NCBI GenBank assembly: GCA_903900335.1
Contig: CAIUMP010000056.1
Location: forward strand, 1-64,000
Direction of reading: 5' to 3'
Length of the DNA stretch: 64,000 nt
DNA from: an uncultured Ignavibacteriota bacterium
GTDB lineage: Bacteria > Bacteroidota > Ignavibacteria > Palsa-1295
In this document: positions 59,365-63,740 of the stretch, piece after piece
Layout: each line of letters begins with the position of its first letter
How positions within the stretch are numbered: the first letter of the stretch is position 1
Notes under the pieces: model-generated
The model's input: the letters and a program-made list of their open reading frames with translations, nothing else
Told to the model about the DNA's origin: nothing
The model's database searches: none
Program-made: the position numbers and the translations under genes

Positions 59365-59469
59365 GTATGGGGGAGCGGCCATGGTGAAGCCGATTCTGCT
59401 CTCACGAACTACTCAGAAACCGCGTTGTTATGCAGTTCTGAACCCTTAAATTCAAGCGAGAGAAAGAGC

Positions 59470-60471
59470 ATGTACGGAAACGTATCCATTGAAGAGGATC
59501 CCAAATCCACGCAGGCGAGTAAGGCTGCGGCAATCGAAGAAGATCCGGTCAAGTTAGCCGAGTTCGAGGCGCGTATTGCCCGTGGCGAGAAGATCGAGCC
59601 GGATGACTGGATGCCGGCGGAGTATCGCCGTCAGGTGCTGCGCATGATCGAGCAGCACGCGCACTCGGAAATCATCGGCGCGCTGCCCGAAGGCACCTGG
59701 ATCACCCGCGCGCCAACGCTGCGCCGCAAACTTGCGCTCATCGCGAAAGTACAGGATGAGGTCGGGCACGGGCACTTGCTCTACTCCGCTGCCGAGACGC
59801 TCGGCAAAACGCGCGAGGCGATGATCAACGATCTCATCAGCGGCAAATCCAAGTACAGCAATATCTTCAACTACCCGGCGAAGACGTGGGCGGATATTGC
59901 CGTCATCGGATTTTTGGTCGATGCCGGTGCGATCGTCAATCAGCTTGCCAACGCGAAGGGAAGCTACGGGCCGTATTGCCGCGCACTCGAACGCATTTGT
60001 TACGAAGAGTCCTTTCATCTGAAGCAGGGCTATGATGCATTCGTCGCGCTTGCAACGGGCACGCCGACGCAGCGCGCGATGGCGCAGGACGCGCTGAACC
60101 GCTGGTGGTTTCCGCCGCTCATGCACTTCTTTGGTCCGCCGGACACGATCTCGGTCCACACCGAGAAGCTCATGCGCTGGAAAGTGAAGATGGCCTCGAA
60201 CGAGGAGATGCGCCAGGACTTCATGGAGCAGTACGTGCCGAAACTCTGGGAGCTTGGCATGACTCTCCCCGATCCCGCGCTCAAGAAAAACGAGGACGGT
60301 TCCTGGAATTACACCCAACCCGACTGGGACGAATTCTTCCGCGTCATCAATGGCGATGGCCCCTGCAACAAAGAGCGCCTTGCCGTCCGCCGCTACGCCG
60401 AAGAGAGTGGTCGTTGGGTGCGGGAGGCGTTGATGCAGGCGGGGAGGAAGCATGTGGTGCCGTACGCGTAA
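59470..60471 (+). CDS. paaA: Phenylacetyl-CoA 1,2-epoxidase subunit PaaA
   Basis: The catalytic di-iron subunit that, with PaaB-PaaC, epoxidises the ring of phenylacetyl-CoA. I start it at ATG 59470 ([10 protein letters not shown]) after AGAGAAAGAG. Metal-ligand helices: QHAHSEIIG (Glu67), [20 protein letters not shown] (Glu97, His100) and [12 protein letters not shown] (Glu180, His183). [19 protein letters not shown] and KHVVPYA form the C-terminus. 333 residues, typical. In other genomes paaB follows directly; here 2.85 kb separates them. Its last 45 bases are repeated at 60872-60916. Confidence 0.94.
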
Positions 60472-60507
60472 GCTGAACTCCTTACAAATTGAACCAGTTA
60501 GGTTCTT

Positions 60508-60801
60508 ATGATTCAAGAATTCGATATTACCGTTGATAATCAAGGCTTTTTGCACATGCCGCAAGAGGTACGGGAACGGCATGGACTAAAGAATGGCGCT
60601 CGCATTCGTGCAGAAGACCGACCGGATGCGATCGTGTTCAAAGCACGAGAAGACGCATTATCGATAGCTTCCAGACAAAAGGCCGCCATTCGATCCATTG
60701 TTGGCATCGTTTCAGGCGAGAGCAAGATCATTGAGCACTATATGGAAGAGAAACGCAATGAGCGCAATCGAGAAGACCATCATTCGGGTCTTTGCATTTA
60801 A
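60508..60801 (+). CDS. VapB/AbrB-type antitoxin-like protein, orphan
   Basis: A 97-residue protein. The first 47 residues are a SpoVT/AbrB-like DNA-binding fold (EFDITVDNQGFLHMPQEVRERHGLKNGARI). The rest is a helical, charged tail (SIASRQKAAIRSIVGIVSG, HYMEEKRNERNREDHHSG) that in such antitoxins wraps the toxin. A VapC-type PIN toxin would be expected at the overlapping ATG at 60758, but its frame ends after 16 residues. Inserted 37 bp after paaA. Confidence 0.68.
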   Translation: MIQEFDITVDNQGFLHMPQEVRERHGLKNGARIRAEDRPDAIVFKAREDALSIASRQKAAIRSIVGIVSGESKIIEHYMEEKRNERNREDHHSGLCI

Positions 60802-60808
60802 CCGTTAA
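60758..60808 (+). pseudogene. Truncated start of a PIN-domain (VapC-like) toxin
   Basis: ATG at 60758 overlaps the antitoxin gene and reads MSAIEKTIIRVFAFNR before TAA at 60806-60808. PIN toxins commonly begin with a short strand ending in (V/F)DTN; the IIRVF segment fits the first strand, but the catalytic aspartate and everything after are missing. I infer a deleted toxin. The call rests mostly on position. Confidence 0.4.
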
Positions 60809-60820
60809 TGGGAACGAAGC

Positions 60821-60916
60821 ATGGAATACGAAGCGAGAGAATCTAAAGAGACCGGCCGCTGGGTTCGCGAAGCGTTGATGCAGGCGGGGAGGAAGCATGT
60901 GGTGCCGTACGCGTAA
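60821..60916 (+). pseudogene. Duplicated 3' end of paaA
   Basis: Translation gives [20 protein letters not shown], then [11 protein letters not shown] and stop: the C-terminus of PaaA. Bases 60872-60916 equal 60427-60471 in all 45 positions, including the stop codon. Upstream of that block the coding sense is kept (TGRWVREA against SGRWVREA) but synonymous bases differ, so the two copies do not share one simple recent origin. It is the remnant of a second paaA 3' end or of a duplicated target. Confidence 0.8.
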
Positions 60917-60972
60917 TTGTTGAACTGAACGATCACATGTCATTCATCCGAACGCTTGCATCACTTCTCTCT

Positions 60973-61027
60973 CATTCCCGCAATGGCATGCAGGGTTTGC
61001 CTGTCATTCCCGCGAGCGCAGGAATCC
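60973..61027. repeat. REP-like CATTCCCGC repeat
   Basis: CATTCCCGC occurs at 60973-60981 and again at 61005-61013, the latter within GTCATTCCCGCGAGCGCAGG AATCC, an imperfect palindrome of the widespread CATTCCCGCG/GCAGGAATCC kind (61003-61027). It precedes the small outer-membrane gene and inflates the apparent N-terminus of that frame. Confidence 0.55.
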
Positions 61028-61053
61028 ATGCGTACTTCTACCAAGAAATATTT

Positions 61054-61482
61054 GTGAATCACGCGCTCATATTCCTCTTGCTCTTTATCCCAAGTGTGCT
61101 TTCAGCGCAGGTGCTCGGGGGGTCCTATCGCACTCTAAATGGCGCATCTGGCGGCTCCTTGGAATTTGGTGGCAAACCGAACGAGAAGTTGCTCGCGACC
61201 GCACAAGGTCAATATTTTGAGGACCGCTGGGGAGTCGCCTTGATATTTAGTGGAGGTACCCGACGCGTTCATATTGGCGTGCTTGCCGGATTAGTCAGCA
61301 GCGCACCAGCCCAAATCAGCTATGCTCATAGCAGCATTTCTCGCGCGCAGACCCGAACGCAGAATTTTAATTTTGGCGCTGCCGGACGCTTCGGCATTAC
61401 GAGTGACACGTCAAGTGCGATGCTCGCGCTAGATTATGGCTATTATACGGGTTTTGGCATCGGACTACTATTTCCATTTTGA
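61054..61482 (+). CDS. Small predicted outer-membrane protein, unknown function
   Basis: A 142-residue exported protein. I start it at GTG 61054, which gives a clean signal peptide (MNHALIFLLLFIPSVLSAQ); the frame runs 39 codons further up through a REP-like repeat. The mature part is strand-rich (VLGGSYRTLNGASGGSLEFGG, WGVALIFSGGTRRVHIGVLAGL, NFNFGAAGRFGITSD, YGYYTGFGIGLLFPF) and ends in Phe. No family recognised. It lies between the paaA remnant and the DUF3883 protein gene. Confidence 0.58.
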   Translation: MNHALIFLLLFIPSVLSAQVLGGSYRTLNGASGGSLEFGGKPNEKLLATAQGQYFEDRWGVALIFSGGTRRVHIGVLAGLVSSAPAQISYAHSSISRAQTRTQNFNFGAAGRFGITSDTSSAMLALDYGYYTGFGIGLLFPF

Positions 61483-61513
61483 TCTAACTCAACCCCTCAC
61501 GGCTTAGGAAAGA

Positions 61514-63304
61514 ATGCTACATATACTACTCGGTGACTCTCGTGGTGACCAGGACCTCATAAAAAAGAAGAGAGTGAGGGAGTGGAAAGTACCGAAGGGT
61601 GCGAAGGAAGGTGACCCTGTGGTCCTATTTTTCAAAGGAGAGAATTCCTCATTCCTCGCTGAAGGAAGGATTGCTAGTAGCCCTGAATTCAGAACTACTG
61701 GTGATTACCGTTCGACCATAGACCACATTCAGCGGTATGCTAAACCCGTCCCTCTTTCAAGTGTCGAGAAGGCTTTTGTTAAGTCCGGATGGAACAGGGG
61801 TAAACAACTGGGCTACACTTCGCTCACGGGAGCGGAGGCCAAGACGCTTCTCGATCTTATCGAGAAGCACTCGCATGCAGGCACCTCAAACGAATCTGAA
61901 CCTGAAGAAAGAACCCTTGTTCCAAATGAACCAAAGCAGTACGTCTCATACTGGACTCCTGAGAACGCAGAATTCGATACGGGGAAGAATTTTGAGTATG
62001 CTTGGAGTGCGTTCTTCAACTCGCTAACTCAAGATGATACTCTTTGGATGGTTACCTCGAAGGATAAGAAACTGTTTCTTCTCGCTCGTGGAAGGGTAAA
62101 AGAAGTATTACCACAAAACATGGCCAAAACACATCCCGCTTTTAGGGGCAAAAAGGATTGGCCCGAGGAAGGCAAGAAGCAGAAATACTGGGCAATTATT
62201 CAGCAGCCAAGTTCCCAAATTGTTTGGAATGATATCACTGATATTAAGGGTGTATTGCGATTTGTATTAAAAAATGGCGTAGTACTTCCGCTCCCGAAGG
62301 ATCCGGCGCAATGGGGCAATTGGCTAAGAGGTCTGCACAAACTTTCAACTTCATCCACTCGACTACTACAAACTCGATTTGGAGCAGTAGCGAGCGATGG
62401 CGCTCTGGCTGCTCCCTCAGAGGACATTGAGGCACCCGAGGAGACGAATGCGCAGACTGTGACAAATTATACCACGTACTGGAAGCCGCAAACAGCAAAA
62501 TCTAATGAAGGCACACTAATGGTTAGCGCAGCAAGCGCGCGATACAAGCGTGTCTTGAAGGGTGATGTCTTATGGATTCTTATGGTCAAAGATGCTCATC
62601 TCTACCTCGTAGGGATGGGAGCGATTGAAGAGGTCATGACGGATGAGCAAGCCGTTGAGAGATTTGGTGATGATAGGTGGGAAGCCGAATGTCATGTCGC
62701 ATTCAAAAAACCCTACGTGCCCTATGAATTGCGGGACATTACAGACCTGTCAAAGGAACTCCGTTTTGAAGGGTCTAATTCGAGCCTTCCAGACGATCCC
62801 GGGAAGTGGGCGAATGCGCTCCGAGCGCTTCGCAAGCCTACACAGCACTCTGTCAAGTTGCTTGCGAATAGATTGCAAGTTCCGGTGATCGCAAGCGATT
62901 CTTCCCCGCTTGACGAATTGAAATTAGGCAATGCTCCGGTCGGGGCTGGCTTTGGCGATTCAATTTCGAATCGAAAAGTCGAGAAAGCCGCGATCAAGTT
63001 TGTGACGTCTCATTTTGAAAAACAAGGGTGGAAAGTCACTTCTAAAGAACAAGAACTATGTGGTTATGACTTGCTATGCGAGAAGGGTAAGAAGATTCAG
63101 CATTTGGAAGTTAAAGGCGTCAAGGGAGTCGGAGAGTCCGTTATACTAACGAGAAACGAGGTAGCCTATTTGGATCAGCCTTCTTCGTTTGTTTGCGTGG
63201 TGACGTCGGCTCTCAGTATGCCAAAATTGACTCGCTATTCAGGAGAGGAATTCAAACGGCAGTTCAAGCTAAATCCGTATGCCTTCATGGCAACGAAGGT
63301 ATAG
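61514..63304 (+). CDS. Multi-PUA/EVE-like protein with C-terminal DUF3883 nuclease domain
   Basis: A 596-residue cytoplasmic protein. Residues 1-120 look like an EVE/PUA-like module (KEGDPVVLFFKGENSSFLAEGRI). Two tandem copies of a further module follow, about 143-288 and 319-455, each with (Y)xxYWxP, LWM/ILMV then (K)LFLLARGRVKEVL or LYLVGMGAIEEVM, a DITD(I/L) and an (L)P(L/D)D/KDPxxWxxxLRxLxK end. The last 110 residues match DUF3883, a PD-(D/E)XK fold: VEKAAIKFVTSHFEKQGWKV (Glu490), GYDLLCEKG (Asp519) and QHLEVKGVKG (Glu532, Lys534). EVE/PUA domains bind modified bases; with a nuclease this suggests restriction of modified DNA. Lower GC than its neighbours. A ribosome site AGGAAAG precedes ATG. 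Confidence 0.72.
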   Translation: MLHILLGDSRGDQDLIKKKRVREWKVPKGAKEGDPVVLFFKGENSSFLAEGRIASSPEFRTTGDYRSTIDHIQRYAKPVPLSSVEKAFVKSGWNRGKQLGYTSLTGAEAKTLLDLIEKHSHAGTSNESEPEERTLVPNEPKQYVSYWTPENAEFDTGKNFEYAWSAFFNSLTQDDTLWMVTSKDKKLFLLARGRVKEVLPQNMAKTHPAFRGKKDWPEEGKKQKYWAIIQQPSSQIVWNDITDIKGVLRFVLKNGVVLPLPKDPAQWGNWLRGLHKLSTSSTRLLQTRFGAVASDGALAAPSEDIEAPEETNAQTVTNYTTYWKPQTAKSNEGTLMVSAASARYKRVLKGDVLWILMVKDAHLYLVGMGAIEEVMTDEQAVERFGDDRWEAECHVAFKKPYVPYELRDITDLSKELRFEGSNSSLPDDPGKWANALRALRKPTQHSVKLLANRLQVPVIASDSSPLDELKLGNAPVGAGFGDSISNRKVEKAAIKFVTSHFEKQGWKVTSKEQELCGYDLLCEKGKKIQHLEVKGVKGVGESVILTRNEVAYLDQPSSFVCVVTSALSMPKLTRYSGEEFKRQFKLNPYAFMATKV

Positions 63305-63326
63305 GAATTACAACGTTACAACTTCA

Positions 63327-63740
63327 ATGACCGAAAGCCTAGACCCTCGCATCCAACGCGCGCACATCGAAGGCGCGCCAGCCTCAGCCGGGCTCGAACC
63401 GAACGAGCACTGGGAGACCTTCGCGATCTTCCATCAGGATAAGCGCGGCGCCGCGCACGAGTTCGTCGGTATCGTCCACGCGCCCGACCCTGAGCTTGCG
63501 CTCGTCTTCGCGAAGGAGCAATTCGGACGCCGCAAGAAGACCGTGAATATCTGGGCCGTCCGCTCGACCGACATCTTCACCTTCCAGCACGAGGACGAGG
63601 ACATGTTCTCCACCGTGCCGGACAAAAACTATCGCGAGGCCTCCGGCTATCCGGTGCGCAAGCGTATCAACAAATATCTTTTCGATACCAAGGAAGAGCA
63701 GAAGGAAATGGAACGAATGGACGCGGAGGCGAAAGCATGA
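63327..63740 (+). CDS. paaB: Phenylacetyl-CoA 1,2-epoxidase subunit PaaB
   Basis: The small bridging subunit of the PaaABCE epoxidase. From ATG 63327 it has 137 residues. HWETFAIFHQDKRGAAHEFVGIVHAPDPELALVFAKEQFGRR and NIWAVRSTDIF are the family signature; the long acidic end (KEEQKEMERMDAEAKA) is normal. Its stop overlaps the paaC start by ATGA. paaA lies 2.85 kb upstream, separated by foreign-looking DNA. Confidence 0.9.
   Translation: MTESLDPRIQRAHIEGAPASAGLEPNEHWETFAIFHQDKRGAAHEFVGIVHAPDPELALVFAKEQFGRRKKTVNIWAVRSTDIFTFQHEDEDMFSTVPDKNYREASGYPVRKRINKYLFDTKEEQKEMERMDAEAKA

Follow-up and report, generated by a model that had tools for sequence, protein, structure and literature searches.

A putative anti-phage nuclease with three reader-type modules and a DUF3883 domain in an uncultured Ignavibacteriota bacterium

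Within the 64,000-nucleotide stretch of DNA analysed here, which we call the window, the gene at 61514-63304 on the plus strand encodes a 596-aa protein which, by computation, combines in one chain an EVE-type domain, a second PUA-fold module that is present twice (the M module, with copies M2 and M3) and a DUF3883 (NOV_C) domain of the PD-(D/E)XK type with its catalytic residues. Such a triple-reader nuclease is likely an anti-phage enzyme, as predicted from its sequence, and more specifically we regard it as probably a type IV-like, modification-dependent restriction nuclease that works on its own as a single chain and was horizontally acquired as cargo. This reading draws on the DUF3883 match with its catalytic residues, on the homology of the N-terminal domain to EVE-type domains, on the fold of the M module, on the recurrence of EVE together with DUF3883, and on the restriction-modification (R-M) and HsdM_N neighbours. 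As in a type IV restriction endonuclease, reader and nuclease domains are predicted to lie in one system.

The gene and its nuclease domain

The open reading frame is exactly the one proposed by the earlier sequence-only reading, with an ATG start and the motif AGGAAAG just 5' of it. Searches with the complete protein gave little beyond its C-terminal part: PADLOC reported HmaA alone, through a match to residues 482-563, PHROGs and NCBIfam returned nothing usable, and the sequence searches against the PDB, whether by the protein, by the M profile, by either of two EVE-type profiles or by the EVE domain of the DUF3883 protein L150, found no significant match, the best value being 0.19. A whole-protein AlphaFold2 model from the single sequence (pLDDT 36, pTM 0.23) was set aside.

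The nuclease domain occupies residues 489-563 (62978-63202, plus strand), where PF13020 (cut-off 22.1) matches the whole protein at E 3.6e-9 with 37 bits, and the C-terminal piece alone with 41.2 bits, so that the HMM search bears out the DUF3883-like domain proposed earlier. The four residues proposed as catalytic, Glu490, Asp519, Glu532 and Lys534, are found at their predicted positions and in the predicted order; they are invariant across an alignment of nine DUF3883 proteins, as are N548 and E549. Moreover, the four are present in 13/13 aligned DUF3883 proteins of other architectures, which form a chosen, non-exhaustive subset of a larger fetched set of DUF3883 loci, and our confidence in the type IV-like reading is slightly reduced by this choice. 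The expectation that the nuclease residues are conserved in homologues thus holds for this protein and these 13, but it fails in family f2 of the same class, where every one of the 14 relatives with a single M module, and both paralogues consisting of DUF3883 only, have lost E490 and E532 but retain D519. Outside the 13, in two cyanobacterial TPR-rich proteins with a DUF3883-like C-terminal end (L155 and L156), the glutamate of the E-x-K motif appears, by eye, to be replaced by valine.

DUF3883 is termed a novel REase domain in PMC3710099, and PMC10609329 places it presumptively among its type IIR groups.

The reader modules

The N-terminal domain (residues 1-120, 61514-61873, plus strand) has two BLASTP matches, at E 4e-10 and 4e-7, to L062, a protein from a spirochaete MAG with the architecture EVE-EVE-DUF3883, in which EVE scores 28.1 bits in Pfam (cut-off 23) and NOV_C 51.7 bits; in the search with the whole protein, residues 2-109 were matched in the same genome at E 3.5e-4. 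When six EVE-type domains, the N-terminal one included, were compared by hhalign with 27 canonical EVE domains (3 of the 30 rows, L108, L109 and L121, having been removed for in-frame stops), the match had an E of 9.4e-7 and a probability of 83.5%. Pfam scans of residues 1-125 and of the whole protein did not report EVE (PF01878), and since the homology is to a protein that passes the cut-off, we label the domain EVE-type by homology and not a Pfam EVE member. Residues W24 and P27 stand before a GD in this domain; our guess is that they correspond to W22 and P24 of VcaM4I, an EVE-HNH enzyme whose EVE domain, according to PMC7897488, flips 5mC or 5hmC into a pocket made up chiefly of P24, W82 and Y130.

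The two M copies follow on the plus strand at residues 143-288 (M2, 61940-62377) and 319-455 (M3, 62468-62878). They are 31% identical over 157 columns, with a pairwise E of 6.6e-21 and a Z of 30, and none of 1000 shuffles reached their score (0/1000), which confirms the internal duplication. When the N-terminal region was compared with M2 and M3, the score was equalled by 337 and 434 shuffles out of 1000, and on these counts we rejected the idea that all three modules form one repeat family by sequence. The idea of a third, more divergent N-terminal module therefore stands as far as a third reader-type module is concerned, this being EVE-type, while no divergent copy of the repeats is detectable there.

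By sequence, the M module has no match in Pfam or PHROGs and no significant one in the PDB, and its fold was approached through an AlphaFold2 model of M3, for which the input was two rows, M3 and M2 of this same protein, so that M2 is present as an aligned row. The best of the five models has a pLDDT of 72.3 and a pTM of 0.72, while the others have pLDDT 70.4, 56.8, 42.5 and 40.3. Foldseek against the PDB put PH1033 first (1wmm, E 0.014, probability 0.99; also 2hd9), together with human THYN1 in complex with 5mC DNA (5j3e); ASCH and YTH structures came after these, and no match reached E 0.001 or better. In VIA-align, where a best Z of 7-8 is common even without a true relative, 2hd9 came out on top at Z 10.2, with 125 of 150 residues aligned at 3.1 A; other matches were 2p5d, a UPF0310 protein (Z 9.7, 3.4 A over 127), the YTH domain of Mmi1 (5h8a_B, Z 8.7, 3.0 A over 121), VcaM4I (6yex_B, Z 8.6, 3.6 A over 127) and an ASCH structure (5guq_C, Z 8.1, with 122 residues at 3.2 A). 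Apart from two DrmAB entries (Z 7.6-7.7), the 50 matches listed are EVE-group, YTH and ASCH structures, and PH1033 and the UPF0310 proteins are members of the EVE group. By group, the best Z values are thus 9.7-10.2 for EVE, 8.7 for YTH and 8.1 for ASCH, with no clear preference for one subfamily. Judging from the model, then, the M module looks like a PUA-superfamily domain (EVE/YTH/ASCH-like), and the fold check suggested for the repeats came out in favour of this superfamily by VIA-align, Foldseek agreeing in kind, with the N-terminal module being EVE-type by homology. A comparison of the M profile with EVE was not significant (E 0.27 for the canonical set, 0.0076 for the pooled one), which is a weak test because ASCH matched neither M nor EVE. 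Against the type IV-like reading stand, on the side of the readers, the absence of a Pfam EVE score in the N-terminal domain, the two-sequence input of the M model, the weakness of three of the five models, Foldseek E values above 0.001, and this profile comparison.

Modules of this fold also raise the question of the target. The nuclease might act on RNA or on the nucleic acids of stressed cells, in an abortive or toxin-like manner, with the PUA-fold modules reading modified RNA such as tRNA or rRNA. PMC7641849 describes PUA-superfamily domains as generally associated with translation and binding RNA, and PMC11090510 describes the CoCoNuTs, which have YTH/EVE-like domains, as predicted to target RNA; moreover, two M-DUF3883 genes of family f2 (L140 and L141) adjoin, by eye, a gene resembling an RlmI-type rRNA methyltransferase. 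The description of DUF3883 as an REase domain (PMC3710099) and the restriction genes that adjoin some other DUF3883 genes argue against an RNA target, which we consider unlikely.

The paa locus and neighbouring defence genes

The gene lies between paaA (59425-60471, TIGR02156 454.5 bits) and paaB (63279-63740, PF06243 80.7 bits), both on the plus strand, as are the two further ORFs of the insertion and the repeat copies given below. The interval here is 60472-63278, or 2807 bp, while in six relatives (L134-L139) it measures, between matches, about 88, 1043, 569, 2274, 526 and 13 bp, and the stretches of these six contain no match to the nuclease gene. The first in-frame ATG of paaB overlaps the nuclease reading frame by 26 nt, and the similarity of paaB to its counterparts in the six relatives begins at residues 7-17. 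Besides the nuclease gene, the cargo consists of just two ORFs, one of 97 aa (60508-60801) with weak AbrB/MazE-like similarity (MazE_antitoxin 16.5 bits, below the cut-off of 24.7) and one of 181 aa (60937-61482) with no family above cut-off. Neither is a methyltransferase according to Pfam and PADLOC; its own cargo unit thus has no dedicated methyltransferase, as for a type IV enzyme, and the nearest one found belongs to an XhoI-family pair 3 kb away. The 97-aa ORF is flanked on both sides by 71-nt direct copies of the paaA 3' end, the first being the end of paaA itself (60401-60471) and the second, 90% identical, lying after the ORF (60846-60916). In the reading frame of paaA, most differences between the two copies are silent, as if the second had derived from a related paaA.

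It had been suggested that low GC and a location inside a broken metabolic operon fit a recently acquired defence gene. The operon is indeed interrupted, by 2.8 kb against about 13-2274 bp in the relatives, and the gene has a GC content of 47.6%, below the 53.7% of the window as a whole and the 58.8% and 59.4% of its neighbours paaA and paaB. However, paaA, paaB, paaC and paaD are uninterrupted ORFs with family matches (paaC and paaD lying partly or wholly past the window), and the low GC was set aside as proof of recent acquisition because the paaA-paaB spacers of four relatives are low as well (0.398-0.475). The cargo of this interval differs between the relatives, and in one of them (L137) a cargo ORF starts with a copy of the 5' coding region of paaB; in another (L138), dispersed repeats, 34-344 nt long and present in multiple copies, occur within the paaA-paaB and paaB-paaC spacers.

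An XhoI-family type II R-M pair (G000:C56:66318-68647, or L133:7319-9648) lies just past the end of the window, 3.0 kb downstream of the stop codon of the nuclease gene. It consists of a type II methyltransferase, which scores 539 bits in PADLOC and matches Eco57I and TaqI_C in Pfam, and an XhoI-family endonuclease (PF04555, E 1.5e-72). The pair is inserted after paaD, separately from the paaA-paaB insertion, and it has no match in the stretches of the six relatives, in five of which both flanks are recognisable. In the spirochaete MAG, the L062 gene is followed about 44 bp downstream by an HsdM_N ORF cut by the contig end, while NTP_transf_2, HepT-like and SSB genes lie upstream. Such neighbours could mean that the protein is an accessory or companion of the XhoI-family pair or of another R-M system and not an independent enzyme; yet paaB, paaC and paaD stand between the two separate insertions and the nuclease residues are complete, so that we hold this to be very improbable and keep to the independent, type IV-like nuclease.

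On plasmids, where the DUF3883 region of the protein matched eight records and the module queries matched none, six neighbourhoods were read. In one of them the DUF3883 gene comes directly after an annotated restriction endonuclease gene of the BPTD_3080 family. A second has SAVED, ThiF and nucleotidyltransferase genes close by, in a third a DNA cytosine methyltransferase gene lies at a distance of 1.4 kb, and the rest have no such clear partner. The expectation that homologues lie near defence genes is accordingly borne out in part, by L062 beside its HsdM_N ORF and near nucleotidyltransferase and HepT genes and by the XhoI-family pair at 3 kb, but not by family f2, where no defence gene was noticed, by eye from the ORF starts, in seven stretches.

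Relatives and proposed function

The distribution of the protein is narrow. It has no match in 12 other genomes of its family (two of them 67% complete), no relative was found in phage records and viral contigs, and none in genome contigs by a search with the protein; a query with a four-row alignment gave 17 loci in genome contigs, all through the DUF3883 region. The architecture was read for 11 of the 17, among which L062 is the sole protein with two EVE-type modules. The fusion of EVE with DUF3883 itself recurs: in L150 and L062 the EVE domain scores above the Pfam cut-off, and in L061 and L027 it scores below. The arrangement had been called unusual, and this is right for the three modules, but not for the pairing of EVE with DUF3883.

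As for the M module, a search with the M-DUF3883 profile found 14 single-M proteins in 12 genomes, all in family f2 (23/391 genomes had any match), and these proteins, which lack both catalytic glutamates, are the nearest relatives of the repeat modules. Outside its own genome and f2, M is rare, being found in 1/396 genomes sampled from an actinobacterial phylum and on two Streptomyces plasmids, the latter with profile E values of 9.8e-15 and 2.1e-10 in a five-protein test. Searches with the whole protein as a single sequence, which are less sensitive, found no M-region match beyond the gene itself in its own phylum (395 genomes), in that of L062 (296 genomes) or in that of L061 (292 genomes). 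On the two plasmids, M stands alone (L091:8001-8552 and L092:7908-8426) and adjoins SMI1/KNR4 and DUF4240 genes, with barstar too in L092; these neighbourhoods look like immunity-gene arrays. It is a tentative possibility that M is a new and rare family of PUA-superfamily readers, absent from Pfam, which would read another modification than the EVE-type domain, so that two or three marks would be checked before the chain cuts; the relatives in f2 would be an exapted, nuclease-dead branch that kept the reading function alone.

These relatives weigh against the type IV-like reading in several ways: the M proteins of f2 have lost both glutamates, no defence gene was noticed in their seven stretches, M occurs by itself on Streptomyces plasmids, and PUA folds often bind RNA. 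In fact, the decayed nuclease of the closest M relatives and the ordinary neighbours of their genes, as judged by eye, would suit a chromosomal reader outside defence whose nuclease goes unused. For the present protein this seems quite unlikely, as the catalytic set is intact here and the lack of a match in the 12 further genomes searched from its family is unlike a housekeeping gene.

We therefore return to the modification-dependent nuclease, for which modification dependence and anti-phage activity are what we infer for this protein. Modified bases in phage or plasmid DNA that enters the cell would be flipped out and bound by the PUA-fold modules; where the DNA is heavily modified, several contacts, each of them weak, may sum to avidity, and the C-terminal nuclease would then cut nearby, whereas the sparsely modified host chromosome would be spared. 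By analogy with VcaM4I, reader-directed cleavage of modified DNA is perhaps the simplest account.

Proteins of this kind have been described, for example the EVE-PD(D/E)XK proteins, which are putative type IV restriction endonucleases (PMC7641849) and likewise unite an EVE-type reader with a PD-(D/E)XK-type nuclease in a single chain; the present protein differs by two extra PUA-fold modules, whose family goes unrecognised by Pfam, and by DUF3883 as its nuclease, a name absent from the text of PMC7641849. VcaM4I is alike in placing EVE before a nuclease, and its structure (6yex) is matched by the M3 model; its nuclease, however, is HNH, it has a single EVE domain, and it is a tested enzyme, assayed against T4gt (PMC7897488), while the present protein is a prediction. 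L062 and L150 share the order of reader or readers followed by DUF3883, and L062 also has more than one reader, but no M module is seen in either and the readers of L062 are two EVE domains. The f2 proteins have the same M module before a DUF3883-like domain and differ in their single M, their lack of an EVE domain and their lost glutamates. No description of the present architecture was found in the literature covered, from which subscription papers were mostly absent. Since EVE-PD(D/E)XK proteins are already predicted to be type IV enzymes, it is the layout which is new, namely three readers with an undescribed M module, while the kind is known.

Modification-dependent nucleases serve as tools for mapping DNA modifications and take part in the arms race with phages that carry modified bases. 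Concrete architectures such as this one link DUF3883, a predicted REase domain, to readers of modified bases, and the chain offers a candidate for a new reader domain that can be put to the test. If true, the joining of one EVE-type domain to a pair of PUA-fold modules from an undescribed family would show how specificity is built by stacking readers.
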